Source: an uncultured Maribacter sp. (lineage in GTDB: Bacteria > Bacteroidota > Bacteroidia > Flavobacteriales > Flavobacteriaceae). From it: DNA of 64,000 nt. Below, one piece after another: positions 41,284-62,046 of the stretch. A program made the translations under genes and the position numbers. The stretch's first letter is position 1. Each line of letters starts with the position of its first letter. Under the pieces are notes generated by a model. That model was not told where the DNA came from, did no database searches, and was given only the letters and a program-made list of their open reading frames with translations. The stretch spans positions 434,001 through 498,000 of the forward strand of contig NZ_CANMTX010000004.1 in the NCBI RefSeq assembly GCF_947500985.1, read 5' to 3'.

Positions 41284-41319
41284 GTGAATATTAAGTTTAA
41301 TATATACTGATTTATCGTT

Positions 41320-41416
41320 TGTTTAATCGATTAACCATTTTAGGTAAAAAATAACCAAAACAGACATTTTTTGTTAAAGATAATTAAAGTCTTACTTTTG
41401 GTTAATCGATTAAACA
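41320..41416. promoter_or_regulatory. Pair of LacI-type operators in the kdgK/lacI divergent promoter region
   Basis: TGTTTAATCGATTAACCA at 41320-41337 and its exact reverse complement TGGTTAATCGATTAAACA at 41399-41416. Confidence 0.8.
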
Positions 41417-41432
41417 AATATATACAAAGTAA

Positions 41433-43265: not shown

Positions 43266-43305
43266 GATATAATTTATTTTAATCTATTCTTAATTCAGTT
43301 TAATA

Positions 43306-44595
43306 TTACTTTTTAATATTTGGAATATATTTTTTCACGGGTTCCACTTTTTTGATTAAAACCAAAATTGCGAGAACACCTAAAACTACTGCTATACAAA
43401 TAGCGATAAATGCTGGGGTATATGAGTTGGTTGTAATCTTACCTACAAACCAGTTCATAATCATTGGTGATACAGCGGCTACCGTTCCTGCCATACCCGC
43501 TAGAGTACCTACAGATGGTCCGCTAAACATATCACTAGATAGTGTTTGAATGTTTCCAATTGCGAATTGGAAGCCAAATAAGGCTAGACCTGCAAGGTAT
43601 ATGAAAGTCATAAAGTTATCTTGCTTTACCAGTATAATGATGCCTACAAAGCCCATAAGAATTAGAATGGCACCAAAGACAATGGTCGCTTTTCTGGAAA
43701 TATCTACAGAATACTTTTTCATTAATTCGCCGCATACCATACCGCCTGCAATACTACCGACTGCTGCCATTAGGTAGGTAATCCACATTGTATTGGCAAT
43801 CTGTTCAATGCTTAAGCCGAATTTATTATTAAGGTAAATTGGCATCCATGCAGCGAAGAACCACCAAATTGGCTCTATGAAAAATCTACATAGTAAAATA
43901 CCCCATGACTCTTTGTAGCTAAGAATTGCACCAACACTAAGGCTCTTTCTTTTAACGCCCGTATCTTCTTCCTCAATTCTATCAGTTAGAATTAGTTTTC
44001 TTTCCTCATCTGTAACCCAAGGGTGTTTCTCTGGGGTAGATTTATTTAAGAATAACCAAGGAATAACCCATAGCAAACCAACAGCACCCAAAATAATGTA
44101 TGTAGTTTTCCAGCCAAATTGGGCGTATAGGAATACGATGATGAAAGGAGCAATAACATTACCAATAGAAGCGCCAGCATTAAATATACCTTGGGCAATG
44201 GCTCTTTCTTTTACAGGAAACCATTCTCCATTACTTTTTACGGCACCAGGCCAGTTACCTGCTTCACCTAAACCAAGTGCACCTCTAAATATGGATAGAG
44301 AAACGATACCACCTGCAAAGGCATGTAATACCGAGGCGACAGACCAAATAATAATAGAAACGGTAAAACCAAGTCTTGTTCCTATTTGGTCATATAATTT
44401 TCCAGAAGCAAATTTACCAATAGCATAAGCTGCTAGAAAAATATTGAACATAAATGCATAATCTGCTTTGTCCATGCCTAGGTCTTTACCCATCTCTGGC
44501 CAAAGTAAAGCAAATGCAGTTCTATCAATATAATTGATAACAGTCGCTATAAAAATAAGCACAATTATCCACCATCTTAGTCCTTTAATTTTCAT
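43306..44595 (-). CDS. MFS transporter, ExuT-like (hexuronate / DEH)
   Basis: RWWIIVLIFIATVINYIDRTAFALLWPEMGKDLGM; RGALGLGEAGNWPGAVKSNGEWFPVKERAIAQGIFNAGASIGNVIAPFI. Confidence 0.92.
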   Translation of the reverse strand: MKIKGLRWWIIVLIFIATVINYIDRTAFALLWPEMGKDLGMDKADYAFMFNIFLAAYAIGKFASGKLYDQIGTRLGFTVSIIIWSVASVLHAFAGGIVSLSIFRGALGLGEAGNWPGAVKSNGEWFPVKERAIAQGIFNAGASIGNVIAPFIIVFLYAQFGWKTTYIILGAVGLLWVIPWLFLNKSTPEKHPWVTDEERKLILTDRIEEEDTGVKRKSLSVGAILSYKESWGILLCRFFIEPIWWFFAAWMPIYLNNKFGLSIEQIANTMWITYLMAAVGSIAGGMVCGELMKKYSVDISRKATIVFGAILILMGFVGIIILVKQDNFMTFIYLAGLALFGFQFAIGNIQTLSSDMFSGPSVGTLAGMAGTVAAVSPMIMNWFVGKITTNSYTPAFIAICIAVVLGVLAILVLIKKVEPVKKYIPNIKK

Positions 44596-44714: not shown

Positions 44715-45416
44715 TTATAAGTTGTAACAATATTTATACAGTTCAACAAAATGATCTTTCATCATTTGTTTTGCTTTCTGTGTATTTTGTTCTTTAATAG
44801 CTTCAAAAATATCTTGATGCTCTTTTAATCTTCTTTTACTCTGGTTTTTATCGCAGACGTGGTATTTCTCAAAATTGTTGATGATCTCTGGTGTGATTAT
44901 CAACATCATTCTATTAATAGTACTATTGCCGCATGCCTGAGCAATTGCTAAATGAAAAAGTAAATCTTCTTGAACAGCGTCTTCATTGTTCAATACTTTT
45001 TCTTTGAAAGCCTCTAATGCCGATTCCATTGATTTTAAATCTTCATCGGTTCTTCTTTTTGCCGCTAGTCTAACTGTTTTTAGTTCTAACAGAATTCTTG
45101 TTTCAACCAATGATTTAAAATCAGGGTCTTCCAAACCAAGAATATCATCCATCATACCGTTCATGGCTACTTGCCCAATATCGGCTACGAATGTGCCACT
45201 TTGTGGCTTAGATTTTAGAATACCATAGAATTCTAGTTTTTGAATTGCTTCACGAACATTACTTCTACTAACTTCAAATTTTTCAGAGAGCATACGCTCA
45301 GAGGGTAATTTGTCGCCTGGTTCAAGATTCTTGTTGTTTATTAAATCTCTAATATTGGCAATTATAACATTATGCAGTTCTTTGTGTTCATTTTTTGTAA
45401 GTATCTCTAGCTTCAT
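44715..45416 (-). CDS. GntR-family transcriptional regulator, FadR/FCD type
   Basis: LEPGDKLPSERMLSEKFEVSRSNVREAIQKLEFYGILKSKPQSGTFVAD; C-terminal helical FCD-like domain. Confidence 0.93.
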   Translation of the reverse strand: MKLEILTKNEHKELHNVIIANIRDLINNKNLEPGDKLPSERMLSEKFEVSRSNVREAIQKLEFYGILKSKPQSGTFVADIGQVAMNGMMDDILGLEDPDFKSLVETRILLELKTVRLAAKRRTDEDLKSMESALEAFKEKVLNNEDAVQEDLLFHLAIAQACGNSTINRMMLIITPEIINNFEKYHVCDKNQSKRRLKEHQDIFEAIKEQNTQKAKQMMKDHFVELYKYCYNL

Positions 45417-45442: not shown

Positions 45443-45468
45443 TTGGTTAACCAGATTGGTTTATCAAA
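45443..45468. promoter_or_regulatory. Tandem UxuR-like operator upstream of gntR
   Basis: TTGGTTAACCAGA TTGGTTTATCAAA, two 13-bp units. Confidence 0.75.
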
Positions 45469-45613
45469 TTTATGAAAATAACTGTGTTATCAAATTTTTA
45501 ATGAACTTAATATTGAGAACTTTACAGAAAATACTGATATGAAAGATTGCTGACCCGCTTAACAAGCCAGCAATCTTAAAAAAAACTAACTCAAACAACT
45601 TTCTTTAAACAAT

Positions 45614-45682
45614 GCTTTAATTTTTACTATCGATAAATTCGATTAGCTAATTCATGAATTTTCAGATAGTAAAAATTAAAGC
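45614..45682 (-). repeat. 18-bp perfect inverted repeat just downstream of susD
   Basis: GCTTTAATTTTTACTATC (45614-45631) / GATAGTAAAAATTAAAGC (45665-45682), 33-nt loop. Confidence 0.85.
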
Positions 45683-45689
45683 TTATAAC

Positions 45690-47219
45690 TTAATACCCTG
45701 GATTTTGTGTTAGGTTAGGGTTTCTTTCTAATTCATCTTCGGGTAATGGAAGTAAATAATCATCTACAGAGAAAAATGGTTTTTCACCTTCTAATCCGGA
45801 TGCTCCAAATACTTCGTTTCCAATTTTTCTTCTAGCAATGTCGTACCATCTTATTCCTTCAAAAGCAAATTCTAATCTTCTTTCTTCTAAGATGTCGTCG
45901 ATTGTAACTGTACCTGAAAGATCTGCAGGTACTGCACTTGGTTCTACTGTTACAGTAACACCTGAGCCAGTTTGAGTTTCTCCACCCATTCTTGCTCTTG
46001 CTCTAACTTGGTTTATATAGTTAAGAGCAGTTGCATTGTCTCCTAATTCTACTGCTGCTTCAGCTGCAATCAATAATACTTCTGCATAACGTATCATAGA
46101 ATAGTTATGGCTAGTTGCTCTAGCGTTTGCGCGAGCAAATGGTCCAGGAAAACGTGTGTATTTTGCAACGTAAGGGTTGTTTTTAGCAAATTCATGACCA
46201 CTGATGTCAAATTGCGTGTAATCAACAACTGTACCTCCAATAGATACTTCGTCATCCATACTAACAGCTCTTCTGTAATCTGCTGCATCCCATGTTGTAT
46301 AAACTTCTAAAGTTGGTACAGCTACAGACCATCCTCCTCCTAAGTTTCTATCATCTCCTCTGATACCGGTCATTGGAGCTGTTTGATCATAAGCATTATC
46401 ATCTGCTTCGAAATTATTGTAATCCAATGCAAAAATTGGTTCAAGAGATGCATCTATAGCATCTGCATTAAATAGGTTTTGAAAATTAGTATCTAATACT
46501 AAATTATAAGTTCCTGCATTGTCTATAACTTCTTGTGCCTCATCAAAAGAATTTTGCCATTCTTCCATCGTTAAATAAACTAGAGCTAAATAAGAACTAG
46601 CTGCCGCTTTCGAAGGGGTTGCTCTTGATGTTACCGTTGCTGGTAACCATGCTTTTGCATACTCTAAATCTGAAATTATATTTTGATATACTTCTGCAGC
46701 TGGAGTTCTACTAATTGAAGTGGCAGCATCAAAATCGGTTACAGGTTCATCGATATAAGGAACATCTCCAAAAAGACGTACTAAGTGAAAATAGTAGAAT
46801 GCTCTTGCAAAATAAGCTTGAGCTGTAATTGGATTTTTTATAGAATCATCCACATCTACATCTTCAGCTCCAGCAATTGCAGCGTTTGCTGCAGCAATAC
46901 CTTGATAAGTTCTTGGCCAGAATTCACTGATCATACCATTACTGGCAAGAGTAGTGAACTCGTTCATTTCAACTCTTCTAGTTTCGTTAGAGGCAAGACT
47001 TACCATGTCTGAACGTAACAATAAGGCAATTGATAATTTTCTGCCCCAAAATTTTTCATTAATAGCGTGTGTTAAAGAACCATCTACCGCTGTTTGTATA
47101 TTCGCAGGAGTTTCAAAGAAACCTTCAGCAGATAATATACCTACAGGCTCTTCTTCTAGATCTGAACATCCCATTATTGATAAGCCTACCAATAATAGTA
47201 ATAATTTATATATTTTCAT
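45690..47219 (-). CDS. SusD/RagB-family glycan-binding lipoprotein
   Basis: Lipobox LVGLSIMGCSDLEEEP; RagB/SusD features ...YNYINQVRARARMGG..., ILEERRLEFAFEGIRWYDIARRKIG, ERNPNLTQNPGY. Confidence 0.95.
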   Translation of the reverse strand: MKIYKLLLLLVGLSIMGCSDLEEEPVGILSAEGFFETPANIQTAVDGSLTHAINEKFWGRKLSIALLLRSDMVSLASNETRRVEMNEFTTLASNGMISEFWPRTYQGIAAANAAIAGAEDVDVDDSIKNPITAQAYFARAFYYFHLVRLFGDVPYIDEPVTDFDAATSISRTPAAEVYQNIISDLEYAKAWLPATVTSRATPSKAAASSYLALVYLTMEEWQNSFDEAQEVIDNAGTYNLVLDTNFQNLFNADAIDASLEPIFALDYNNFEADDNAYDQTAPMTGIRGDDRNLGGGWSVAVPTLEVYTTWDAADYRRAVSMDDEVSIGGTVVDYTQFDISGHEFAKNNPYVAKYTRFPGPFARANARATSHNYSMIRYAEVLLIAAEAAVELGDNATALNYINQVRARARMGGETQTGSGVTVTVEPSAVPADLSGTVTIDDILEERRLEFAFEGIRWYDIARRKIGNEVFGASGLEGEKPFFSVDDYLLPLPEDELERNPNLTQNPGY

Positions 47220-47245
47220 TTTTCTTATTTTAAATTAATTCTTTA

Positions 47246-50200
47246 TTAAAACTTTAAATTAAGGCTCATAGTAACAGTTCTTACTGTTGGGTAGTTTCCA
47301 AAGTCAAAACCTTGAGCGGTATTAGATGAAGTGTTGTTGTTGCCACCAGAACCGTAGTAACTTACCTCAGGATCTAAACCAGAATAATCTGTAAAAGTTA
47401 ATAGGTTTTGACCACTTAAAGATAATCTAAGGTTATCAAGACCTAACTTTTCTGAAACGTTAGAAGGTACTGTATAACCTAAAGAAATATTCTTAAGTCT
47501 AATGTAACTACCGTCTTCTACAAAACGAGAAGAAATTTCTCTGTTACTGTTGTTACCAACACGTGGAGCGTTTGTGTCTGTATTTGTTGGAGTCCAAGCG
47601 CTATTGTAGTAAGCTCTAGTAGTATTTGCATCTCCATTCGTTAACTGAACATTGGTCAAGTTAAAGATATCTCCGCCTTGAGAACCTTGAAAGAATATAC
47701 TTAAATCTAAGTTTTTGTAGCTAAAGTTGTTAGTGAAACCCCAAGTAAAATCAGGATTAGGGTTACCTATCGTTGTTCTATCTGCTTCGGTAATGTCACC
47801 ACTTCCATCGATATCTGCAAATAGTGGGTCACCTGCTACACCACCTGATAAGGTTTGTGTACCTGTAGGTGCTGTACCGCCTTGATAAACACCAGCATAT
47901 TCATAACCCCAGAATAGACCAACTTCTTCACCAACTCTTAAAACATAACTTCTGTCATGACTGAAATAACTTGGTGTAGCATCGAAAAATAAATCTGCAT
48001 CGTTTACTAAGCTAACCACTTCGTTTTTGTTAAAAGCAATGTTGAAATCAGTTGTCCATCTAAAATCTTCTTTAAGAATGTTTTTTGTACTTAAAGCAAT
48101 TTCAAGTCCTCTGTTGTTTATTTCACCAACATTAGCTAAAATATCATCACCAGAGAAACCTAAGTATTCAGTAATACTGTTATCCGTTAAAATCAAATCT
48201 TTAGTATCAATGTTGTAATAATCTAATGATACAGATACTCTATTGTTAATAAGACCTAAATCAATACCAAAGTTTGTTTGATATGAAGATTCCCATTTCA
48301 AATTTGGATTTTCAGGTTGTTCAGGAGTTACAGCACTAACAGTTTGTCCGTTGCTTGAAGCATAAAGAGTCTCAAGTCTTGATAAAGATTCGTAAGCACC
48401 AATTGAAGGGTTACCAGTAACACCGTAACTAGCTCTAAATTTCAAATTAGAAATAGCCTTGCTGTCTTTAAGAAAGTTTTCATTAGAAACTTTCCATCCT
48501 AAAGCTGCAGAAGGGAAAAGGGCATACTTTTCATTAGCCGAAAAGTTCGATGCACCATCTCGTCTTATAGTCGCAGTTAATAAATATTTATCATCAAAAT
48601 CATAATTGAATCTACCAAACTGAGATTGAATTTCTACTTCTGATTTTGAAGAATCTGGTTGTAAGATGTTCGTAGCAGAACCTAAACCATAATAAGAAAA
48701 GCCATCTGAAATAAAGCCGGTAGCTTCAGAGAAAAAGTTTTCATTAACTGTTTTTTGGTAAGAATATCCTCCTAATAACGTTAAATTGCTTTTACCGAAT
48801 TCTTTAGTGTAAGTTAAATAGTTTTCACTCAAAACACTTGTTTCTCTATTAGTGTCTACTATTGCTCTTCCGCTTTCTCCACCTGCAGTTTGGGTTAATA
48901 ATGAAGGTAAGTATATACCTCTAGTCTGATTCTCTGTACTTAAACCAAAAGTAGTTTTGAAACTAAGACCTTCTAAAATTTCATAATTAGCATATAAATT
49001 AGCTCTAAAATTATCGGTTTTTGTTTCATCAATTCTTTCTGTTGCAACAGCAAAAGGGTTATCAACTGGATCACCTACAGTATTACCAAATGTATAAGTT
49101 CCATCTGCATTAAAAACTGGTTGGTCCGGTGCATATCTTAGAGCTAATGTAATTACATCATCACCACCAGCAGAAACAGAACCATCTGACTGTGTTGCAG
49201 AACCATTTTTAATACCTCTACTTCCAAAAAGGTTCATACCTAACTTTAATTTGTCGGTAACTTGAGCGTCAATGTTAGATAAGAAAGTTAATCTTTCGAA
49301 ATCAGAACCTATTATGATACCATCTTGTTTGAAGTAGTTTGCAGAAGCATAAAAATTAATTTTTTCGCTACCACCTGAAAATGAAACTTGGTTATTAGAT
49401 GTACTTCCTGATCTATAGATAAGGTCTTGCCAATCTGTATTAGCAGGTCCTTGTGCATATGGAGTTGAAACACCATTGTTAGTTCTAATTTGATTTTGAT
49501 AATCAGCGAACTCACTAGCATTCAGTAAATCTAATCTGTTAGAAATATTTTGAATTGCGTAAGTAGTGTTAGCTTCAATTGATAATTTTCCACTTCTACC
49601 TTTTTTAGTAGTTACTAATATAACACCATTAGAACCTCTTGATCCATATATAGCAGTTGCTGATGCATCTTTTAAAACCTCCATTGATTCAATGTCATTT
49701 GCTTGTGGCATAGAAGCGCCTACAAAGCCATCTACAACAATAAGTGGAGAGCTACTTGCATTAATAGAGGTGTTACCTCTAATTTTTATACTGATAGGTG
49801 CACCTGGTTCACCACCATTATTAGATTGTACTACAACACCTGCTGCACGTCCTTGTAATGCTTGTTCTGCATTTAAAACAGGATATGCATTCAATTCCTC
49901 AGATTTAACTGAAGAAACTGAACCTGTAATGTCACTTTTTTTCTGAGAACCGTAACCTACTACAACAACCTCTTCCAGTTGGCTTGCATCTTCAGCAAGA
50001 ACAACGTCTAAAGTTTGTTGCCCATTAATAGTTACAGATTTCTTAGCGTAACCAATGTAAGAGAATTCTAATACATCGCCATTTTTAACTGTAATGGCAT
50101 AATTACCATCAAAATCTGTTGATGTACCTGTTGTTGTATTTTGGATAACAACATTGGCACCGGGCACAGGCATATTTGTTTCATCGGTAACTGTACCGGT

Positions 50201-50281
50201 CAGGTTATACCCGTCTTGTGCGAATAATGATATGTTGAGTAACAATACCATCATTAATACTAATTTCGTTTTTAAATTCAT
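47246..50281 (-). CDS. SusC/RagA-family TonB-dependent receptor
   Basis: Carboxypeptidase-regulatory-like N-terminus, VVVGYGSQKKSDITGSVSSVKSEELN, plug and beta-barrel, NRGLEIALSTKN, YIRLKNISLGYTVP. Confidence 0.97.
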   Translation of the reverse strand: MNLKTKLVLMMVLLLNISLFAQDGYNLTGTVTDETNMPVPGANVVIQNTTTGTSTDFDGNYAITVKNGDVLEFSYIGYAKKSVTINGQQTLDVVLAEDASQLEEVVVVGYGSQKKSDITGSVSSVKSEELNAYPVLNAEQALQGRAAGVVVQSNNGGEPGAPISIKIRGNTSINASSSPLIVVDGFVGASMPQANDIESMEVLKDASATAIYGSRGSNGVILVTTKKGRSGKLSIEANTTYAIQNISNRLDLLNASEFADYQNQIRTNNGVSTPYAQGPANTDWQDLIYRSGSTSNNQVSFSGGSEKINFYASANYFKQDGIIIGSDFERLTFLSNIDAQVTDKLKLGMNLFGSRGIKNGSATQSDGSVSAGGDDVITLALRYAPDQPVFNADGTYTFGNTVGDPVDNPFAVATERIDETKTDNFRANLYANYEILEGLSFKTTFGLSTENQTRGIYLPSLLTQTAGGESGRAIVDTNRETSVLSENYLTYTKEFGKSNLTLLGGYSYQKTVNENFFSEATGFISDGFSYYGLGSATNILQPDSSKSEVEIQSQFGRFNYDFDDKYLLTATIRRDGASNFSANEKYALFPSAALGWKVSNENFLKDSKAISNLKFRASYGVTGNPSIGAYESLSRLETLYASSNGQTVSAVTPEQPENPNLKWESSYQTNFGIDLGLINNRVSVSLDYYNIDTKDLILTDNSITEYLGFSGDDILANVGEINNRGLEIALSTKNILKEDFRWTTDFNIAFNKNEVVSLVNDADLFFDATPSYFSHDRSYVLRVGEEVGLFWGYEYAGVYQGGTAPTGTQTLSGGVAGDPLFADIDGSGDITEADRTTIGNPNPDFTWGFTNNFSYKNLDLSIFFQGSQGGDIFNLTNVQLTNGDANTTRAYYNSAWTPTNTDTNAPRVGNNSNREISSRFVEDGSYIRLKNISLGYTVPSNVSEKLGLDNLRLSLSGQNLLTFTDYSGLDPEVSYYGSGGNNNTSSNTAQGFDFGNYPTVRTVTMSLNLKF

Positions 50282-50553
50282 TTGTAGTCTTGTTATGTTA
50301 ATTTAAGTTCGACTTGTTAAAGTCTGATTAAAGCATTTTAAAATGAAAATTGAGTTAAGTTTATTTTACATCTGTTAGGCTTCTTTTATTTCTATTTCTT
50401 GCTTTTGAAGAAAGCACTAACAGTAAGTAGTTCAATTTTTAATCATAGTTCTTATCTCAAATAAGAAGCGATAATGTTAATGTGTTAATCTAAATTTTCA
50501 GTCATTGGATTGAATTAAAATTAAGTTCGATGTTAATTTGAGTTGAAAATATT

Positions 50554-50592
50554 TTGGTTTTCCAAACTGGTTATCCAATTTGGTTGACCAAA
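50554..50592. promoter_or_regulatory. Triple tandem UxuR-like operator between divergent susC and manA
   Basis: TTGGTTTTCCAAA CTGGTTATCCAAT TTGGTTGACCAAA, three contiguous 13-bp units. Confidence 0.75.
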
Positions 50593-50915
50593 TATATGTT
50601 ATTTAATCGTTAAAAAAAGAGAAATTTACATTTTAACAACTTTTGCTGTGCTGAAATTTTTCAAATCTGCTTTTAACCCTATATAATATTGAGGATATGG
50701 TATTTAATTAACAAATGGAATCTTTTTTGAGATAATGCTTTTTGTAGCTAATTATGCTTTATTTGCAGTTAAAAACTGCATTTAAATCCCTAAATTTGAG
50801 CGGTTTTCCTCTCTAACTTTTCAATAATATTTTGATTTTTAATAGCAAGTAATGAATTCAACTTTGTGATATTCATTAATTTCTGATGATTTTAATTCAT
50901 TGTAAATACAGTAAT

Positions 50916-52010
50916 ATGAATAACAGTTTTGAGCAATATGCATATATGCCCCTTAAACAATTTTCTAACAGAGTTTGGCGAACTTATGAAGGTGGGGCAT
51001 TAATTGATAAGTGGAAAAAAGATGTTCCAGAAGTAGATGGTAGCATGCCAGAAGAATGGATTATGTCTACTGTAACTGCAAGAGGCAATGGTCGCCCTGA
51101 AAACGAAGGGCTCTCTCTTGTGGAAACTCCGTCAGGTACTCATTCGTTAAAACAATTGGTTGCTTCTAACAAAGAACTGTATTTAGGTAAAGCATTAGCT
51201 GATAAATTTGGCACTACGGGAGTATTGATAAAAATGCTCGATTCTAAAGAAAGGTTAACGATACAAGTTCATCCAGATAAAGATTATGCTAAGACCATGT
51301 TGAATTCCGCTTTCGGAAAAACGGAGTCATGGTACGTTTTGAATAAGAGAGAAATAAATGGCGAGAAGAGTGTCATTTACATGGGCTTTAAAGAAGGTGT
51401 GACCAAAGAACAATGGGAAACCTTATTTATCGCTCAAGATATAGAAGGTATGTTGAACAGTCTTCATAAGATAGAGGTAAACCCTGGTGATGCATATATG
51501 ATATATGGTGGTGTACCACATGCAATTGGTAGTGGTTGCTTTTTAATGGAAGTTCAAGAGCCTACAGATTATACCATGCGTGTAGAAAAAGTTACTCCTG
51601 CAGGATTAACAATTTCTGATGAATTAATACACCAAGGGGTGGGGGAGCAAAATATGCTTGATTGTTTTCATTACGATGGTTGTTCTTATGAAGAAGCAAT
51701 AAAAAGATGGAAGGTCTCACCTAAAACGATAGATTCATCTGATACGCATTCATTGAATACGATTTTCAATGAAAGTCATACAGATTGTTTTGGGCTAAGT
51801 GAGTTAGATTTAAATGGATCACATACCATTAAAGCAAATGGAAGCTTTTTTGTAGCTGTTATTTACTTTGGTGAAGGCACTATAGTATGTGGTGGTAAAG
51901 AATATAGCTTTGCCCAAGGTGATGAAATATTCTTTTCTGCAGCAATAGACCAAGTTGAGTTTAGGTCTACTATAGAATCGAAAATCTTATTATGTTACCC
52001 ACCAAAATAA
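50916..52010 (+). CDS. manA: Class I mannose-6-phosphate isomerase-like protein
   Basis: VWRTYEGGALIDKWKKDVPEVDGSMPEEWIMSTVTARGNG; GVLIKMLDSKERLTIQVHPDKDYA; DAYMIYGGVPHAIGSGCFLMEVQEPTDYTMRVE. Start at 50886 or 50916. Confidence 0.85.
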   Translation: MNNSFEQYAYMPLKQFSNRVWRTYEGGALIDKWKKDVPEVDGSMPEEWIMSTVTARGNGRPENEGLSLVETPSGTHSLKQLVASNKELYLGKALADKFGTTGVLIKMLDSKERLTIQVHPDKDYAKTMLNSAFGKTESWYVLNKREINGEKSVIYMGFKEGVTKEQWETLFIAQDIEGMLNSLHKIEVNPGDAYMIYGGVPHAIGSGCFLMEVQEPTDYTMRVEKVTPAGLTISDELIHQGVGEQNMLDCFHYDGCSYEEAIKRWKVSPKTIDSSDTHSLNTIFNESHTDCFGLSELDLNGSHTIKANGSFFVAVIYFGEGTIVCGGKEYSFAQGDEIFFSAAIDQVEFRSTIESKILLCYPPK

Positions 52011-52053
52011 GGTGTTTGGAAAATAAACATAACAGCGGAATCCAGAAATTATC

Positions 52054-54372
52054 TTAATATAGAATTTTTAGCTTCTGCTGTTCTTCTACTTTAATTTCAC
52101 CAGAATTTATAGTTGAATTATTCTTATGATGATTATTCTTTTCTCCCCATAAAAGAGCAGCATAGCTAACAGGATTGTTCTTGAAAGTGTTATCTGTAAT
52201 TAGCACGTTGATTATACCTTTGGTTTTTAATAGGATATCACTTTTTTCATTCTTTCCACAATTTGTAAAACTGCTATTTTTTATTGTTAAATATCCACCA
52301 ATAGTAGATTCGTCATAACCCCCTCTATAGAAATCAATAACATTCTGCCCAATATTATCAAACTCGCATTGGTAAATAGAGACCATTTCGGCATTGTAAT
52401 CGCCCTTTTCGTCTGCAGCGAGAACTATACCGTTTAAGCAATTATTGAAAGCAGTATCTTTCAATGAAATGCTATTCACAAAAGAGCCTTTGTAGGCTTT
52501 TAAGATAAAGGCGAAATTGCTTATTTCACAACCCATTATATCTAGACTGTAGGCAGATGACATATTTGTTGTTAATGGTGCAAAAGCAATCTGGTTATCT
52601 AAGCCTTTTACTATAATATGTTCCAATCTTAAATTTCCCTTAGGCTTCATTTTAAAAGCCACGCTATCTTTATCATTCGTGAATATTAATTGAGCTTTAG
52701 TGGTAGCGTCTTTTGAACGTAAGGTAATACTCTTGTCAATAGCTAAGGGAGTATTTATTTGATAAATGGCATCGGTTAATTCTATAATGTCGCCAGTATG
52801 TGCCTGTTGAATTTTATTGGTAAGTTCACCTTCTGCAGCTGTGGCTTTTATTATTTGAGGTTCATAAACTTCTTCTTCGGGCGAGAACCAATCTGGTCCA
52901 TACTTTTTCTTGTCGATTATAAATTTTTTAGCTGAAGAAAGGTCGTTTATGGCACCTGGGCGATTTTTATCACTTCGCGATGCACCAAAAATATCTTTGT
53001 CGATTTTAGCAAAATCGAATCCGTTATACACCACTTTCGAAATACTATCTTTAAAATTGGCAGGAGCAAAGAGCCATTCATTAATTTGCTCCATTTTTAC
53101 TTCTCCATTTTGTAGTACATCATACTCAGAATATAGAGTGCCATTATTGTCAATAATATTATTCTTAAATAAAATGCCATCCATTTCACTGTGATTTATA
53201 ATAGGAGTTTCATCTGACTCCGAATTATAGATCAGATTGTTCGCAACGATAGATCGAATAGGTGATGCAGATCTAATTTCACTCGCAGGCAGTACACTGG
53301 TACTTTCTAAATTTTGACCAATACCTATTTGCCAAGGTGATGTGCAATCTACCCATGTATTAAAAGCGACCACAACATCTGATACTTGTAGATATCTGTT
53401 TAAAGGAGTCATTGGTATGCCGTTCATAATCGCAAGTGGTGACCTAAATTCTTCTCCTTTGATTTTGTAGAAATAATTATTGGTAATCCAATGACCTGCA
53501 TTTACAACTCTAATGCCACCATAGAATTCAGAATCATCAGCACCTATAAAAATATTACCATTTACTTTAGCGTAATTACTATGGCGTAATACCAAAGAGC
53601 CTTCAGATTTGTAAAAGATATTATGATTGAAAGTATTGAAATTTGTCTTGTCTGATATTATCTCGACTTCACCATTACAGGCGTCAAAATAATTATCTGA
53701 TACGTTTACATAACCTGGTGAAAAACGGGTTTTACTATCACCTATACGTATGGTTTCACCTCTAGGACCTCCTTTTCTGGGACGTGGTCCAAAATAGTTG
53801 TTTACTATTTGATGGTGATTCTCTATATGTTGGTTACCCGTGAAGAATACTCTTAACGTTTCTCCATCATTAGATTTTCCAGATATATAATTATGATCAA
53901 ATTGGTTGTGCTTACCGTAAAGTTCTATCCAACGGTCATTCGTGTATCGGTTTGGTTGGTTGTAATCTTTAATGACTGTATTGGTTACACGACAGTTATT
54001 TGCAACGCTATCTTCATTAATCATAAAACGAATTATAGAACTGTTGGGGGAGTATCCATTTTTAAAGTAGAGGTTACTTACAGTTAAATACTCTCCGCCT
54101 AGTTGAATAAATGAATTGCCTTCTAAAAATACTTTACCAGGTGTTTCGGCACTAATGGTAATAGGTTGTTTTTCTGTACCGTTACCGTAGTATTTTATAG
54201 CAGCATCTTTCCAAATGCCATCGGCTAATAAAATCTTATCACCAGGACTGGCTTTGGCTATAGCAGTATTTAATTCGGCAATGTCATTAACAATGAGAGT
54301 TTTTTTAGAACTATTTTCTGTACAAGATGCTAGTGCAATAAAAACAGTAATCGCTAGTAGAATATTCTTCAT
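52054..54372 (-). CDS. PL6-family alginate lyase (lipoprotein, two beta-helix regions)
   Basis: Lipobox FIALASCTENS; ISGKSNDGETLRVFF; NYFGPRPRKGGPRGETIRIGDSKTR; NGEVEIISDKTNFNTFNHNIFYKSEGSLVLRHSNYAKVNGNIFIG. Confidence 0.93.
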   Translation of the reverse strand: MKNILLAITVFIALASCTENSSKKTLIVNDIAELNTAIAKASPGDKILLADGIWKDAAIKYYGNGTEKQPITISAETPGKVFLEGNSFIQLGGEYLTVSNLYFKNGYSPNSSIIRFMINEDSVANNCRVTNTVIKDYNQPNRYTNDRWIELYGKHNQFDHNYISGKSNDGETLRVFFTGNQHIENHHQIVNNYFGPRPRKGGPRGETIRIGDSKTRFSPGYVNVSDNYFDACNGEVEIISDKTNFNTFNHNIFYKSEGSLVLRHSNYAKVNGNIFIGADDSEFYGGIRVVNAGHWITNNYFYKIKGEEFRSPLAIMNGIPMTPLNRYLQVSDVVVAFNTWVDCTSPWQIGIGQNLESTSVLPASEIRSASPIRSIVANNLIYNSESDETPIINHSEMDGILFKNNIIDNNGTLYSEYDVLQNGEVKMEQINEWLFAPANFKDSISKVVYNGFDFAKIDKDIFGASRSDKNRPGAINDLSSAKKFIIDKKKYGPDWFSPEEEVYEPQIIKATAAEGELTNKIQQAHTGDIIELTDAIYQINTPLAIDKSITLRSKDATTKAQLIFTNDKDSVAFKMKPKGNLRLEHIIVKGLDNQIAFAPLTTNMSSAYSLDIMGCEISNFAFILKAYKGSFVNSISLKDTAFNNCLNGIVLAADEKGDYNAEMVSIYQCEFDNIGQNVIDFYRGGYDESTIGGYLTIKNSSFTNCGKNEKSDILLKTKGIINVLITDNTFKNNPVSYAALLWGEKNNHHKNNSTINSGEIKVEEQQKLKILY

Positions 54373-54413
54373 AAAAGTAACTTGTTAAATAAAATGAACT
54401 AGCTTCTGTTTGT

Positions 54414-55667
54414 TTACTGAATGAAATCAATAAATCCGTTTAATGCAACGTAAAGCATATAACAATTGAAAATAAAAGTGGCGCCTAAGGCTAAATTCAT
54501 CCCAATACCTACTTTGTACTCTTTCATGATACTTTCTTTGTTTAAGAGGATAATAAGAAAGAGTGTAATCAATGGCATTACAAACGGACTTAATGCTTGA
54601 GAAGCAATTAATATCCAAACTGGTTTTCCTCCTAGAATAGGGACAATTAAACCAGACAGTGCCACCAATACAACAATTAGTTTGTACAGCGGTTTTTTCA
54701 TGTCGCGTTCTGTACCTGTGTAATCAGCAACTAACCAAGGGAATAATAATAGGTTGGGAAAGATGGATGACAAACCCGCACCGATAATACCTAATGTAAA
54801 TAGGGTAAGGGCGAAATCTCCTGCCCATGGTCCTAATGCATGCATCATATCTGTGGCATCTTCAACAGGTGCGCCCTTAAAGTACAGGGTTCCCGTTGCG
54901 CTGATCATTATAGCAAGACTTATAAAAAAGGTCATTACCATTGAAGACATTGCATCTTTGTTTTCAGTTTTTAAATCTTTTAAGCCCCAATTTTGTTCTT
55001 GAACGAGAATACTTCTCGACGCTAAACAAACACCTGCCATTGTAGTACCTACTATACCGGCAATTACCAAGCCGTTGTTATCACCTTTAGGCAATTCTGG
55101 AAAAAATTCGGTAATGGAAGTGCCTGCTTCTTTAACCACCATAAAGCTAGTGATAATAAAGGCTAAGGCCATAAAGCCAACCATAATACTCATGGCTTTT
55201 ATGAAATTTTCGTGTTTACCGGTCCAAAAAAGTCCGATAAGTAAAGCGATAAAAAAGATGGAAACTACAGGTTTGTTTAGAAATGAAATGGAAGTTTTTA
55301 CTGAAATCCATTCCATTGTTACTTCTGCTACTACGCCCATAACGCCAATACAAGATGAAACAATAGAGACGAGTAATGCAGTAATAATAAAAATAGTGAG
55401 TGGTTTACCGAATGCCTTTTTAAAATTGAACATTAGGGTATTTCCAGAAACGATGGTCAATTTACTAATAGACACCAATAAGAAGTAGGTGAAAAAACAA
55501 GAAAGTAGTAGCGCCCATGAAAGGCTAAGACCATATTTAGCACCAGAAACTACCATTGAGGTGACACTACCGGTACCTACAACGTAACCAATAATAAAAA
55601 ATGCTGGACCAAAATCCTTGAGACGTTTTTTGAATTTTCCTGAAAAGGACATATTTTCTGTTGTCAT
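54414..55667 (-). CDS. Atypical Nramp-family-like transporter
   Basis: About 11 TM segments; FGPAFFIIGYVVGTGSVTSMVVSGAKYGLSLSWALLLSCFFTYFLLVSISKLTIVSGNTLM; AGIVGTTMAGVCLASRSILVQEQNWGLKDLKTENKDAMSSMVMTFFISLAIM. Confidence 0.72.
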   Translation of the reverse strand: MTTENMSFSGKFKKRLKDFGPAFFIIGYVVGTGSVTSMVVSGAKYGLSLSWALLLSCFFTYFLLVSISKLTIVSGNTLMFNFKKAFGKPLTIFIITALLVSIVSSCIGVMGVVAEVTMEWISVKTSISFLNKPVVSIFFIALLIGLFWTGKHENFIKAMSIMVGFMALAFIITSFMVVKEAGTSITEFFPELPKGDNNGLVIAGIVGTTMAGVCLASRSILVQEQNWGLKDLKTENKDAMSSMVMTFFISLAIMISATGTLYFKGAPVEDATDMMHALGPWAGDFALTLFTLGIIGAGLSSIFPNLLLFPWLVADYTGTERDMKKPLYKLIVVLVALSGLIVPILGGKPVWILIASQALSPFVMPLITLFLIILLNKESIMKEYKVGIGMNLALGATFIFNCYMLYVALNGFIDFIQ

Positions 55668-55757
55668 AAGTATTGGTTCAGCATTTAATATGTTATAAAA
55701 TATTACTTCAAAAAATCTATTTGAAGCCGCAAAAAGTAACTGTAAATAGATTAGGTC

Positions 55758-56132
55758 TTACTCTTTATCTCCGAAATAAGATGGACCCACACCACTTAAG
55801 AAATCTTCTCTGACAGGGCTAAAAGTATCAATTAGTTCCCCTTCTTCAAGGCAAACAGCACTATGTAATAAATTTGGTTCAATATAAACTCCGTCACCTG
55901 CTTCTACTATTTGCTTCTCACCGTCAATTACAAATTCGAATTTACCTGAAACGCAATAGGTAGCTTGTGTGTGAAAATGTTGATGAGGGGCACCTAATGC
56001 TCCTTTGTCAAATTTTACTCTAACCATCATGATTTGGTTGTCATAACCTAAGAATTTTCTTGAAACTCCTCCTCCAAGTACTTCCCATTCCATGTCTTTA
56101 GTGATGACGTATTTTTCACTGAATCTTTTCAT
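55758..56132 (-). CDS. kdgF: KdgF-like cupin (unsaturated uronate linearisation)
   Basis: Small cupin: VRVKFDKGALGAPHQHFHTQATYCVSGKFEFVIDGEKQIVEAGDGVYIEPNLLHSAVCLEEGELIDTFSPVREDFL. Confidence 0.88.
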   Translation of the reverse strand: MKRFSEKYVITKDMEWEVLGGGVSRKFLGYDNQIMMVRVKFDKGALGAPHQHFHTQATYCVSGKFEFVIDGEKQIVEAGDGVYIEPNLLHSAVCLEEGELIDTFSPVREDFLSGVGPSYFGDKE

Positions 56133-56151
56133 AATTTTTATTCTTTAATAT

Positions 56152-58380
56152 TTATTTAAAATAATAAGAACCAGACCACTCATAATTCTTATCGTTAATT
56201 TTTAATGTATGTGTAGCTTCTTTTGAAGCATTGGTATTTGCAATAATAAATAGTTTGGTAGAATCTTTTACGGTAGTTATTGAAATAGCAGTGTAATCTA
56301 TAGTATCTAAAACTACTTTTAACGCTGAGATAGAACTATTAGAATTAACAGCAGATTCTGAAACCGGGCTATAGCTTCCATGTGCTTCTATAGCTGAAAC
56401 AAAAAGCGTATTTTGAGTATCATTTCTGCGGATAATAAAACCAGCTTCTCTTCTTAAATTAAATTCAGGGTCATTGGCGCCTATTCGTACAAATCTTAAC
56501 TCGTCATCTTTTGAGGTTGCAGATGTTAAGGTATAGAACTTCCCTTTTTCTAGCCAACTCAATTTAGTGTTTTCTTCTGTTGTACTTCCACAACCTTCTG
56601 ACCATAAATGTTGATAGCCGCTATCAATACCTAAAGGCTCAAGGGTTTTTGGAACTTCGAATTCAAAATTTGTGTTCAATACTTGACCCATAAAATAAAA
56701 GGGCAAATCATATTGGTTGGTACTATCAGACTTAACTCGTAGAATATCAAGCATGAAAGGCTTTTCAAATTCACCATCTTTAATAATGGCCATTGTTCTG
56801 TGCATCTCAGTTCCAGGATATGCGTTAGATTCTTTAGCGCTTACTAATTGTACATTGGCATTAGAATCATCAAAAATATATAAAGTAGGGTTGTGCTTGC
56901 TGCCAATATCATATTTGCCTTGGTAGTGAGATTTCTCATTCTGCACAAGGGTGTTATGGGCAATTGTTTGCTTGGCCCAAGTTTTATTTTCCTTCAGATA
57001 ATTACCACCACCTTTCTGTTCAATATTTACAAAACGAGCTAATCCGTAATCCTGCAATACTTCATCACCATTTTCGTAGAAGGAGTACGATAACTTATCA
57101 TAGTGCCCATGACTTGAGCCTTGTGCTGCATATTTAAAAACAAGTTCTAAATCATCGCTACGTAAAATACCCACACCACCTTGTTTTCCGTTAGGACCGT
57201 CAGATAAGTTGATTGATTTTTTAGCGAAAGGTTTTGCTTTTCCATTTTTTACTCCAAGAGCAACAGCTAAACCAGAATCGTCTAACAATACTTTGTTTTG
57301 CTTTTCTGCTATACTTAATAATCCAGGGTTTTGGTTTCCGAAATAATAAGAAATATCTACAGCAGTAACTAAGGCATCATTGTAATAAGACATTCCTTTC
57401 TGACCATCGTTAAGGGGAAAGAAATCTCCATCTGCATCAGATAAATTTAAAAGGGCATTGATTGATTTTAAAAGTACTCCGTCCTTGTATTCAAAAATTT
57501 TCAATTCTGGTTTTACATTGTGTAATCCTTCTGCAAAAATCAAAAATGGATACATGGCATAACGCTGGTAGTATGGACCTTCATTATAATAACCGTCTGG
57601 AGAAAAAGGTTCTTCAATGTTCGCTAAAAATCCGGCTTTTCCTTCCTTATTGATAAATCCGCCATCATCGTCTTTAGCGGTTTTATCCATCTCTAAATCT
57701 GGAATTCCGTATAAAGCACGATCAATTAACTCTTTATCGTTCATTACTAAACCAATCATGCCAACAGCTGCATTACCCCATGTACTATGATTGTGTACTC
57801 TTTGATAGAATTGCGGACTATCAACTGAAATGTGATCTGCAAATGGTCTAAAAAGATTTTTCTCTAGCTTTTTTCTTTCGGCTGCACTTAAGTAGTTATA
57901 TACACAATCGTAAGCTTGGCTAACGTAAACCAACCAGTTAGAATCGTTTAAACATTGCCAAAACAGCTTACCTCGTGCATAAGATCTGGTTTTGGGGTGC
58001 AGAGGTAATGTTTTATACATTCCTTCATATTGCATAAGCATGTCTTTTACATACTTTGCATACTTTTCGTCGTCTAAAATTTGATATAAAACACCAGCTT
58101 GTTGCATTACTATCATGTTACGTTTATGACGTACATGGGTATATCCACCAGAATAATCTTTAGGTATAGGTGTGTCTATGCCTAAAGCTATTTCGGCATC
58201 AATCTCTGCTTTTAACTTTTGTAACGAGGCATCAAATAAAGGAACAGAACCTAATTCTGCTCTTATTTTTTCAACTCCCTCTTTAGTGAGAATAAGGCTA
58301 GGGTGTTCTTGTGCAGCTGCGCTGAACGTTATTAAAATAGCGCAAATAAAAATTTGCAATGTTGTTAAGTATTTGATCAT
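56152..58380 (-). CDS. PL17-family oligoalginate lyase (heparinase II/III-like)
   Basis: Signal peptide; RVHNHSTWGNAAVGMIG; PDGYYNEGPYYQRYAMYPFLIFAEGLH; KYAAQGSSHGHYDKLSYSFYENGDEVLQDYGLARFVNIEQKGGGNYLKENKTWAKQTIAHNTLVQNE. Confidence 0.93.
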   Translation of the reverse strand: MIKYLTTLQIFICAILITFSAAAQEHPSLILTKEGVEKIRAELGSVPLFDASLQKLKAEIDAEIALGIDTPIPKDYSGGYTHVRHKRNMIVMQQAGVLYQILDDEKYAKYVKDMLMQYEGMYKTLPLHPKTRSYARGKLFWQCLNDSNWLVYVSQAYDCVYNYLSAAERKKLEKNLFRPFADHISVDSPQFYQRVHNHSTWGNAAVGMIGLVMNDKELIDRALYGIPDLEMDKTAKDDDGGFINKEGKAGFLANIEEPFSPDGYYNEGPYYQRYAMYPFLIFAEGLHNVKPELKIFEYKDGVLLKSINALLNLSDADGDFFPLNDGQKGMSYYNDALVTAVDISYYFGNQNPGLLSIAEKQNKVLLDDSGLAVALGVKNGKAKPFAKKSINLSDGPNGKQGGVGILRSDDLELVFKYAAQGSSHGHYDKLSYSFYENGDEVLQDYGLARFVNIEQKGGGNYLKENKTWAKQTIAHNTLVQNEKSHYQGKYDIGSKHNPTLYIFDDSNANVQLVSAKESNAYPGTEMHRTMAIIKDGEFEKPFMLDILRVKSDSTNQYDLPFYFMGQVLNTNFEFEVPKTLEPLGIDSGYQHLWSEGCGSTTEENTKLSWLEKGKFYTLTSATSKDDELRFVRIGANDPEFNLRREAGFIIRRNDTQNTLFVSAIEAHGSYSPVSESAVNSNSSISALKVVLDTIDYTAISITTVKDSTKLFIIANTNASKEATHTLKINDKNYEWSGSYYFK

Positions 58381-58385
58381 GCTTG

Positions 58386-60722
58386 TTATTCGTTTTTAAG
58401 TAGGCCTAAGTCTTTGCCATCAGTACCTTTTCCTTTTAATGGAGAATCTGAAGGTAATGCGTAGTTGGTGTCTTTAGAAAATTCAGGGACAAGTTCCCAT
58501 TGATTTTCCACTTGGTATTTCTGATCGCCAGTGACCATTAGTTTTTCTGAATTACTCAAAGCATTATTAAGAACTTTTACAATTGGCTCACCGACTACCA
58601 GATGCATGTTAATTGCCTTGCTATCTTTAAAAATATTGTTTTTAATGGCTGTTTCTTGAACTCCGTATAAAGAAACGGTAGCATCATATTTATTTTTAGA
58701 ACCGTAACCAACATGGTCAAATACATTGTGCTCCATTTCTAAAAATGGTCCAAAGGTACTTTCATCTTTACCACCTCTATACAAACGTAATGCAGCGCCT
58801 TGTAAATCATTGATGGCATTGTTATTCATTAAAAAGTATTCCACATTGTAAGCACCAATGTCATCAGTTTCTTTATCTAAGGCTGCAATGCTACCAGAGA
58901 TGTTTTTAAATTTAGAATTTTGAATACTAATAGTGTCGGCAAAAGTTCCTTTTGAAACTCGTAATACATCAAAAGAGTGGTTTACGATCATGTCTTTAAA
59001 CTCACACCTGTCAATAAACAGTTTGTAATTATCGATCATAGATTTTTTGCTGGTACTAATAACTGAGTTACCTGCGTAGTCTGGGGATTTGGTACCGTCA
59101 AAAGTGATATTTTCTAGAGATAGACTACCGCCATTTTCAATTTCAAAAGCCATCATTCTTTCAAATAAGATGGTCGCCTTTTCTTTACCGATTGTTTTAA
59201 AAGTAAGTGGGTGATTAATTTTAACGGCTTTGGTCAATAAGTAAGTACCACCGCCTTCAAGAATGATAATATCACCTGCTTTCGTTTCTTTTACTTTATC
59301 GTACAACGTATTAATACCAGCAGCTACGTTAATAGTATTACCAGAATTTAACGCAACCGTATTATCTGCTTTAGAATACCATGATGTACCTGTGTTCTCT
59401 TTAGTTGCGATTTTAGGACTAATAACAACTTTAGTTTTAATCTTTTTTGAAGTAGGAATGGGGAATCCGTTTTTGTCTTTTACCAGTTTAATCTTAGCAT
59501 TCTTAAAACCTTCTTCTATAATTGTTTCTGAATTTTCACCAAGGATGTTGTTCTTGAATTTTACACCGCTAATATCATCATCAATTGTGAAAACATCTTT
59601 TTTGGTATCGTTGTAAATGATGTTTTCTGAAAATTCAGAGGTTCTTGGTGCCTGACTTCTTTCAGCGTCGCTACCTGCACCAAAAAGAATATTATCGCAG
59701 TTTACAAAAGTGTTGTTGTTTACTTTAGAATCGATAACTGGTACATACCTATTTGGTGGTGAATTAGGTACACCGTTCATCATTACAAAGGCACCTCTAA
59801 AACGATATCCTGTCAAGCCAACATGGTAGTTGTTAATAACTGTTTGCGTTTCATTAATGACACGAACGCCGCCAGTACTTGGTTTATTATTGCCTATAAA
59901 TACATTACCATCTACCAATGTTTCGTTGCCATGGCGCATAGTCAATGTACCTGTACATTCAAAAAATGTATTGTACTTAAAAGTGTTATTACAAGATTTA
60001 TTAGAGATGATTTCGTGCTCACCGTTAGTTCTATCAAAATAGTTAGATTCAACCAAGGTGTTGGATTTTTCTAATGCATGGTGGCTAGTTCCTATTCTTA
60101 AGGTTTCTCCTCCATTGTTTCCGTAGGTAGGGCGTGGTCCAAAATAATTATGATCTATTTGGTGATTGTTCGCTCTACTATCTTCGGTATCTAAACCAAC
60201 AATCATGGTAACTCCTAAATTCTTTTTACCTGCAATATGGTTATGGTCAATTCGGTTATTTTTTCCGTAGATGGTTATCCAATAATCTTGTACTTGACGC
60301 TCAGGATTATTAAAGTTATCGATTACACATTCGGTAAGGCGAGAATTATTAGCCATTTTTTCTCTACTTTTTCTGAAGGAAATAACAGCGTTGGTCGGCG
60401 TAAAACCGTTTTTGAATACAAGACCTTTTACGATTAAATGATCGCCAGCGATTCTTAAATTAGATGCGCCAGATAAAATCACTTTTCCTTTTTCTTCTGC
60501 TATAAGCGTAATCGGATTTTCTGCGGTACCATTTGCTTCGAAGAGTAGTTCAGAATCCATCCAAATTCCATTGGCAAGAACTATGCTATCACCAGGCTGT
60601 ACTTTTTGAAGTACTTCAGTAAACTCTGCTACATTTTTTACAGTATGAGTATGCTGTGGTGTGGTAAAGGAATATGCCAGGCATAGAAAAACAGATAAGA
60701 ATAGAAGGTGGTATCGTCTCAT
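58386..60722 (-). CDS. PL6-family alginate lyase
   Basis: ATG at 60722 gives signal peptide MRRYHLLFLSVFLCLAYSF; NYFGPRPTYGNNGGETLRIGTSHHALE; NGEHEIISNKSCNNTFKYNTFFECTGTLTMRHGNETLVDGNVFIGN. Confidence 0.93.
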   Translation of the reverse strand: MRRYHLLFLSVFLCLAYSFTTPQHTHTVKNVAEFTEVLQKVQPGDSIVLANGIWMDSELLFEANGTAENPITLIAEEKGKVILSGASNLRIAGDHLIVKGLVFKNGFTPTNAVISFRKSREKMANNSRLTECVIDNFNNPERQVQDYWITIYGKNNRIDHNHIAGKKNLGVTMIVGLDTEDSRANNHQIDHNYFGPRPTYGNNGGETLRIGTSHHALEKSNTLVESNYFDRTNGEHEIISNKSCNNTFKYNTFFECTGTLTMRHGNETLVDGNVFIGNNKPSTGGVRVINETQTVINNYHVGLTGYRFRGAFVMMNGVPNSPPNRYVPVIDSKVNNNTFVNCDNILFGAGSDAERSQAPRTSEFSENIIYNDTKKDVFTIDDDISGVKFKNNILGENSETIIEEGFKNAKIKLVKDKNGFPIPTSKKIKTKVVISPKIATKENTGTSWYSKADNTVALNSGNTINVAAGINTLYDKVKETKAGDIIILEGGGTYLLTKAVKINHPLTFKTIGKEKATILFERMMAFEIENGGSLSLENITFDGTKSPDYAGNSVISTSKKSMIDNYKLFIDRCEFKDMIVNHSFDVLRVSKGTFADTISIQNSKFKNISGSIAALDKETDDIGAYNVEYFLMNNNAINDLQGAALRLYRGGKDESTFGPFLEMEHNVFDHVGYGSKNKYDATVSLYGVQETAIKNNIFKDSKAINMHLVVGEPIVKVLNNALSNSEKLMVTGDQKYQVENQWELVPEFSKDTNYALPSDSPLKGKGTDGKDLGLLKNE

Positions 60723-60731
60723 AGAAGGAAA

Positions 60732-60757
60732 TTGGTTTACCAAATTGGTTTACCAAA
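60732..60757. promoter_or_regulatory. Tandem UxuR-like operator upstream of a PL6 gene
   Basis: Two identical 13-bp units TTGGTTTACCAAA TTGGTTTACCAAA. Confidence 0.8.
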
Positions 60758-60969
60758 AATAAGGATATTTGCAAGACTGGCAAATATTTAACATAAAAAG
60801 GGCGGTTTAATTTACGAATCGATAAATATCTACTTTAGAAATCGTCAATTCGATAAATTCTATTACTGGCAAATTTTCCGATAATTAGTAGTCTTATTAA
60901 CCTAGTAACGAGTGATTTGTTTTCAGTTTTAATATACTTTAAACGACAGTACCATAAGAAAACTAAATG

Positions 60970-62022
60970 TTATTTTTCGCTCGGTTGAGTACCTGCACCA
61001 ACTGTTGCCTCTTTAAACCAGACTTCGGTATAATCTCCGTTTGCATATTGTTTTTCGATATTACCATCATAGGTGTCAGCACCTGTACTCCAAACAATAT
61101 TGTCTTCTGGAGATTTACCATTAGTTTGATTATAAGCACCTTGTTTGAAATATTGAATTTCGCCAGCATATGCATTTTCGCGTTCCAAACCATCACGACC
61201 TATTGAGGCATATAGTGTTTTAATTTGTTCAGGTAAGGTTTTAGTAAATTCAGACGCCAATAGGTTTTTGGTGAACTTTACGGTTTCATGACCTTCACTT
61301 GTAAAAGTTAAGTACATGATGCCTTTATAAACATTGATTTCATAGCTAAATTCTTCACCTAATTCAATACCATTTTCTGGTTCTGCAGGAGGAGTTATTG
61401 CGTCTGATCCAACAACAGACATGTCATTACCCCAAACTGCCGATGAATAATCCCATCTTTTTGAATTATCACCTGCTGTGTTGATTTCATAATTCCAGAA
61501 AACAGATCCTTTTGTATGTCCGGGAAATTTCTTGTAGAATATCTTTATAGGTTCATTCTCATGACCCTCATCACTATGTATTTGTCCTACTACAACAGCA
61601 TAAGAAGCGGCAACTCTGGCATCGCCAGAGGTAGATACGTGTTGTACCTTTAAAGTTCCGGTTAATTTTCCGCCAGTTTCTGGTATCCAATGTTCTTTTT
61701 GTCCTAGTTCTGTTCTTGTATTGCTAGATGTACGAGATGTTATGCCGCTATTTGGTGTTTTGTAAACTACCCAATCCGTTTTTCCGTCATTAGCAACATA
61801 AAAGAAATCATCTTTAGCGTAATCTTTAAGGTTGTCCTCGTAGGTGCCATCACCTAATAGAATTTTCCATTCGGCCATAAACGGAATAACATCACTTGGG
61901 TATTTAACGGCAGTTTCACCTTCGGTCGTTGATTCTTCATTAGAAACTGTAGTTTTCTTTGAGTTGTCTTTACAGGCAAATAAAGCTACTACTGCTATGA
62001 TGGTAATTATTGATTTTTTCAT
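60970..62022 (-). CDS. PL7-family alginate lyase lipoprotein
   Basis: Lipobox VVALFACKDN; PL7 motifs NTRTELGQ, VVVGQIHSDE, IQYFKQGAYNQTNGK. Confidence 0.93.
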   Translation of the reverse strand: MKKSIITIIAVVALFACKDNSKKTTVSNEESTTEGETAVKYPSDVIPFMAEWKILLGDGTYEDNLKDYAKDDFFYVANDGKTDWVVYKTPNSGITSRTSSNTRTELGQKEHWIPETGGKLTGTLKVQHVSTSGDARVAASYAVVVGQIHSDEGHENEPIKIFYKKFPGHTKGSVFWNYEINTAGDNSKRWDYSSAVWGNDMSVVGSDAITPPAEPENGIELGEEFSYEINVYKGIMYLTFTSEGHETVKFTKNLLASEFTKTLPEQIKTLYASIGRDGLERENAYAGEIQYFKQGAYNQTNGKSPEDNIVWSTGADTYDGNIEKQYANGDYTEVWFKEATVGAGTQPSEK

Positions 62023-62046
62023 TGGTAATATATTTTTTGCGTGGTA

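Follow-up and report, generated by a model that had tools for sequence, protein, structure and literature searches.

The DNA stretch analysed here (the window) spans 64,000 nucleotides, C4:434001-498000 of a genome of the genus Maribacter (4.25 Mb, 42 contigs), and carries a polysaccharide utilisation locus (PUL) for alginate. A gntR gene (44715..45416, minus strand) adjoins susCD, PL6, PL17 and kdgF genes, with like neighbours in relatives. Comparison with named relatives places the window in Maribacter; in Maribacter sp. 1_MG-2023 the regulator is 96% identical. Short palindromes repeated in tandem stand before gntR, between susC and manA, and before a PL6 lyase gene. These repeats are very probably the operators of a GntR/FCD repressor of the AusR type, known from Zobellia galactanivorans, that controls alginate utilisation in Maribacter.

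Direct reading of the sequence gave TTGGTTAACCAG-A-TTGGTTTATCAA for the gntR array (45443-45467), TTGGTTTTCCAA-A-CTGGTTATCCAA-T-TTGGTTGACCAA for the central array of three units (50554-50591), and two identical units, TTGGTTTACCAA-A-TTGGTTTACCAA, for the PL6 array (60732-60756). Of the three central units, the middle one is weak (8/10). Arrays of two, three and two units with an exact 13-bp spacing had been reported by a first-pass annotation of this DNA, and all three were present where it had placed them. When the window was scanned for pairs of good units (summed score of at least 17/20), such pairs occurred at 13-bp spacing (four pairs, in the three arrays) and at 26 bp (the outer units of the triple), and there were none at the other spacings from 10 to 39 bp. 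Single units with at most two mismatches numbered 63 in the window, compared with 39.6 ± 5.5 in shuffled sequences.

A search of all 4.25 Mb of the genome with at most one mismatch found the tandem pattern four times in the forward and once in the reverse direction, and the reversed-pattern control gave no tandem matches at the same stringency. The genome-wide motif scan that the annotation had proposed, run with up to three mismatches, returned as intergenic arrays the three of the window and three more. The fourth array, a double one, lies just beyond the window end (C4:498433-498457, equivalent to 64433-64457) before the PL6 gene of a PL6-PL7 operon; the fifth (C1:625637-625661) precedes a lone SDR gene; and the sixth (C7:13624-13661), with three units, is upstream of a second susC in a second alginate PUL. 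The weaker tandem-like matches, on C12, C3 (two), C2 and C5, were all inside open reading frames and were discarded.

We then compared the occurrence of operator and regulator in 151 Flavobacteriaceae genomes, sampled at nearly one per genus. Of these, 39 contained the tandem pattern and 39 a match to the regulator. With orthologues defined by at least 52% identity to the window GntR, the tandem operator was found in 37 of 37 genomes with an orthologue and in 2 of 114 without (Fisher p=3e-33), counts that are not independent events because the relatives share ancestry. The two remaining regulator matches (G078, 35% identity; G116, 27%) are not orthologues and lack the tandem pattern, and two genomes (G062 and G109) have the pattern without the regulator. 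Among genomes sampled across the class, the fused tandem was rare. One clear case was found outside the family, in G234 (L247, G234:C10), where a 52% identical regulator adjoins a tandem TTGGTnnACCAA pair, so that the pairing reaches beyond Flavobacteriaceae; in two more distant relatives with 49-50% identical regulators, no tandem was seen near the gene.

The operator unit is the 12-bp palindrome TTGGTnnACCAA. The spacing of strong unit pairs across 80 named loci was 13 bp (101 times), 26 bp (41 times), 39 bp (twice) or 33 bp (once), and the reversed-sequence control of the named loci contained no strong unit pairs. The 114 arrays in 74 loci comprised two (58 arrays), three (51) or four units (5), and the gap between GT and AC was 2 nt in all of them. 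The first-pass annotation had also pointed to palindromes formed at the junctions between units, and these, reading ACCAAnTTGGT, do occur in the arrays by construction. They might be the true binding site, with the 12-bp units as by-products of the tandem layout, and isolated exact junction palindromes were in fact more frequent than in the reversed control (17 versus 3). Nearly all of the isolated copies, however, were in coding DNA, chiefly in one conserved stretch of the MFS gene. Outside arrays, isolated exact TTGGTnnACCAA was instead nearly always non-coding, mostly about 30 bp upstream of gntR. In addition, many gntR promoters have a single unit and no junction palindrome. Because isolated TTGGTnnACCAA is mostly non-coding and isolated ACCAAnTTGGT mostly coding, we regard the 12-bp palindrome as the unit, and a separate role for the junction palindromes as very improbable.

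Inspection of the flanking sequences revealed that the arrays are joined to the core promoter. The sigma-A −7 box of Flavobacterium is TAnnTTTG, at −12 to −5 (PMC9723704). In the named loci, oriented with gntR on the plus strand, 98 of 114 arrays had TAnnT directly abutting their first TTGG on the left and 6 on the right, against a local TAnnT background of 3.7%. The first unit of structural arrays starts at offset 5 from the TA of the −7 box in 98 of 114, and the −33 element is a TT(G) that is conserved at a distance of 18-19 bp upstream of the box. The genus sample, which partly overlaps the named loci, gave the same picture for loci of 36 genera: TAnnT immediately preceding TTGGTnnACCAA was found in 47 of 50 arrays, in 44 of them on one side only, and in all 44 the gene downstream on the TAnnT side has its match among the proteins of the alginate locus (SusC, PL6, PL7, PL17, MFS or GntR). 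In the Maribacter genome the exact fused motif has six copies, five of which are operator arrays; the sixth (C2:629126) is coding and was set aside. By this register, unit 1 would cover about −7 to +5, unit 2 +7 to +18 and unit 3 +20 to +31, relative to the predicted +1.

The annotation had further proposed one regulon comprising gntR, susCD and the PL6-PL17-kdgF operon. The co-occurrence counts and the downstream genes in 36 genera largely bear this out, except that the regulon extends beyond the coordinates it had given and that a paralogous regulator is present. Copy number also differed among targets in the genus sample: 19 of 32 susC arrays had three units, whereas all nine lyase or MFS arrays had two and none had three (Fisher p=0.0017), a trend from which relatedness is not fully removed.

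In the window, the susCD triple operator (50554..50591, minus strand) reads TTGGTCAACCAA, TTGGATAACCAG and TTGGAAAACCAA in transcription order, and its first unit is fused to the susC −7 box TATATTTG (50589..50596, minus strand) as an exact fused motif. The polarity of the arrays and their fusion to the −7 box direct the central array to susC rather than manA. The manA-side sequence, TATTTTGG, is one base short of the −7 fusion, which is exact on the susC side only, and manA, earlier considered a possible target, is improbable as one. The susC-like TonB-dependent receptor gene (47246..50281, minus strand) forms one operon with the susD-like gene (45690..47219, minus strand), and susC is the gene downstream of most arrays in relatives. 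A susC leader of about 300 nt is predicted (50281-50584); long array-to-ATG distances at susC are common among relatives. The double operator of the PL6-PL17-kdgF-NRAMP-PL6 operon (60732..60756, minus strand) is likewise fused through unit 1 to a −7 box, TATTTTTG (60754..60761, minus strand), with the −33 element TTTG at 60781-60784, 19 bp upstream.

This register bears on two other ways in which the repeats might act. They could work in RNA, units 2 and 3 folding in the leader into hairpins that govern translation or termination. The predicted +1 falls inside unit 1, so that the later units would be transcribed, and susC leaders are long in most relatives; but the centre of a single unit is only 2 nt, which makes a poor RNA loop, the first and most conserved unit would be only partly transcribed, and the presence of arrays tracks the GntR regulator. 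Rfam yielded no match at gathering score for the susC leader, and we judge action in RNA extremely unlikely. We give just as little credence to activation by the regulator from these sites. Some GntR proteins are activators, the sole and unspecific point in its favour, but the first unit lies at −7/+1, where activators normally do not sit, and AusR is reported to be a repressor.

The gntR promoter shows a different register from that of the structural genes. Its first unit (45456..45467, minus strand), which overlaps the −7 box, is decayed and reads TTGATAAACCAA on the coding strand, and the intact unit CTGGTTAACCAA (45443..45454, minus strand) is predicted to lie at about +7 to +18. The −7 box TAAATTTG (45465..45472, minus strand) and the −33 element TTTG (45491-45494), 18 bp upstream, were read from the sequence. 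In all 11 Maribacter and Croceitalea gntR arrays, the second G of TTGG is replaced by A (TTGA or TTAA). Across relatives, the unit overlapping the −7 box of gntR is decayed or missing, and the one intact unit lies 13 bp downstream of the structural position. This single intact unit starts 18-20 bp from the TA of the TAnnTTT(A/G) box at gntR in 50 of 57 named loci; in the genus sample a unit precedes gntR in 24 of 34, with an offset of 18-20 in 16 of the 24. The different register predicts strong occlusion at the structural genes and weaker autorepression, in agreement with the generally weaker tendency of GntR autoregulation (PMC4494728). An SDR and an MFS transporter gene (42504..44595, minus strand) lie downstream of gntR and are probably cotranscribed with it; the window unit scan revealed no operator array in the 120-bp gap between gntR and the MFS gene.

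Taken together, these comparisons lead us to favour, with some reservation, the view that operator and core promoter form one composite element across Flavobacteriaceae. The array would begin at a fixed base of the −7 box and extend downstream in 13-bp steps, its copy number tuned to the target and highest at uptake genes; the gntR promoter would be exempt through its decayed, −7-overlapping unit, and the promoter class could be read from sequence. Fusion of the first unit to the −7 box in structural promoters is apparently new. The −7 register and the gntR exception were derived here by comparison and may already stand in the primary AusR paper (Dudek et al. 2020, Nucleic Acids Res 48:7786).

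The regulator itself has 233 residues, with a GntR winged helix-turn-helix (wHTH) at 17-77 and an FCD domain at 103-223, both well above the Pfam cut-offs (PF00392, 68.6 bits; PF07729, 96.8 bits). Residues D151, H155, H200 and H222 are invariant in 30 orthologues, and we take them to fit the metal site of FCD domains. An AlphaFold2 (AF2) model (pLDDT 80, pTM 0.65) matches FCD-type GntR structures, including the DNA complexes of NanR and DhdR, at a whole-chain TM of about 0.5 with uncertain domain orientation. The genome encodes four FCD proteins in total. One of these, GntR2, is a GntR/FCD protein 75% identical to the window GntR and belongs to the second PUL on C7 (L026, G000:C7:12500-32000), which also contains SusC, SusD, a PKD-type protein, two PL7-like lyases named by sequence resemblance, an NRAMP-like transporter and the triple operator. 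The GntR2 promoter has a weak unit at offset 18. NRAMP-like transporters occur in both alginate PULs (54414-55667; L026:11100-12371), and a metal or an unusual substrate is possible for them.

The two GntR/FCD paralogues, each adjoining an alginate PUL, might split the sites so that each rules its own PUL and there is no single regulon. Duplication of AusR is reported in Zobellia, where sub-functionalisation has been proposed, and the effector domains of the two proteins may still differ. On the other side, the two wHTH regions are nearly identical (SRSNVREAIQKLE versus SRSSVREAIQKLE), and the two PULs have operators alike in unit, spacing and −7 register, from which cross-binding is expected; most relatives, moreover, have one regulator with the same type of operator. 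A division of sites between the two paralogues therefore seems to us possible but rather unlikely.

We return to control by an AusR-type repressor. Unit, spacing, register, polarity, conservation, regulator-operator co-occurrence and targets were read from the sequences compared, and we infer binding by the window GntR, repression, an effector and cooperativity. Each 12-bp TTGGTnnACCAA palindrome with one spacer base would be one dimer site, and a dimer on unit 1 would keep RNA polymerase off the −7 box and the start site. Adjacent dimers 13 bp apart, whose putative side-by-side binding on the arrays is plausible from the precedent of NanR, would strengthen repression, most at susCD, until an alginate breakdown product in the metal-containing FCD pocket frees the repressor. 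At the gntR promoter, the decayed −7 unit and the one intact unit just past +1 would weaken autorepression and maintain a standing supply of repressor. Several points weigh against this account. No operator precedes gntR itself in about a quarter of the loci. Within-unit conservation is partly a product of selection by the array finder, which demands two good units (the flanking TAnnT and the −33 element are not so selected), and the kinship of the sampled genomes makes the counts non-independent. The two paralogous GntRs could share or divide sites, and the transcription start sites were inferred from the −7 consensus.

The genes of the lyase operon, all on the minus strand, follow its double operator in the order PL6-type lyase (58386..60722, PF14592), the first gene; PL17-type oligoalginate lyase (56152..58380) with alginate lyase and heparinase II/III C-terminal domains; KdgF-like cupin (55758..56132) and NRAMP-family transporter (54414..55667), both assigned by Pfam domain scan; and, at the operon end, a second PL6-like gene (52054..54372) named by its resemblance to the upstream PL6. 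The PL6-PL7 operon (60970..63999, minus strand), whose double operator is the fourth array, has a PL6 gene that starts past the window, followed by a PL7-like gene. Divergent from it across that array are genes for a Xylose-isomerase-like TIM-barrel protein and an RraA-like protein (L014:1033-2741, C4); it is towards PL6 that the array is fused to a −7 box. The lone SDR gene with a fused operator on C1 (L015:3303-4073) encodes a protein 39% identical to the window SDR, a candidate reductase of 4-deoxy-L-erythro-5-hexoseulose uronate (DEH) outside the PUL. Two TTAATCGATTAA palindromes (41323 and 41402) were noticed in the interval 41283-41433, which separates kdgK from the divergent gene of a LacI-family regulator. 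This sequence arrangement suggests a second regulator, of the LacI type, for the lower pathway (kdgK-pfk-eda) in place of GntR.

Alginate is one of the main polysaccharides in brown algae. Flavobacteriaceae count among its major degraders, yet control of their PULs at the promoter level is known in few cases. A regulator-operator pair that is conserved in many genera, with a fixed −7 register, makes the AusR regulon predictable from Flavobacteriaceae sequence, including lone genes outside the PUL such as the SDR gene on another contig. The system is suited to experiments on the way in which repression depends on copy number and register, and the gntR promoter is a natural test case for asking what an autoregulator gains from a weakened operator of its own.

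The first-pass annotation had likened the units to the sites of UxuR and ExuR of E. coli. The likeness holds for UxuR of the FadR subfamily, whose similar palindrome TTGGTnnACCAA has 2 nt between GT and AC, and fails for ExuR, whose sites have 3 nt (PMC4494728). UxuR also has like units around gntP/uxuA and upstream of uxuR, as well as a similar winged helix, and aligns with the window GntR over its full length with moderate similarity and a different C-terminus. Unlike the arrays described here, none of the E. coli sites found has the head-to-tail arrangement with a 13-bp period; UxuR serves hexuronate catabolism, and another effector is expected. NanR of E. coli is a GntR/FCD repressor that places three dimers side by side on a three-copy repeat operator and is released by a sugar acid. 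Its operator, however, consists of direct GGTATA repeats instead of palindromes, and its cooperativity needs a 32-residue N-terminal extension. The window GntR has no such extension, its first helix starting at residue 8, after about 7 residues, in the AF2 model, so any cooperativity must arise otherwise.

The nearest likeness is to AusR of Z. galactanivorans, a GntR-family protein that is reported to repress most alginate genes, to bind single, double or triple operators and to be freed by degradation intermediates (PMC7874173, PMC8286568; also treated in PMC8073546). As described for AusR, a GntR-family regulator lies inside an alginate PUL with susCD and lyases, the targets are alginate genes, and the operators come in one to three copies, here as singles (gntR of relatives, GntR2), doubles, triples and rarely four. 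The host genus, Maribacter, and the two regulator copies in two PULs set the present case apart from that of Zobellia. By this shared anatomy we assign the window system to the AusR-type regulons, a kind already known.

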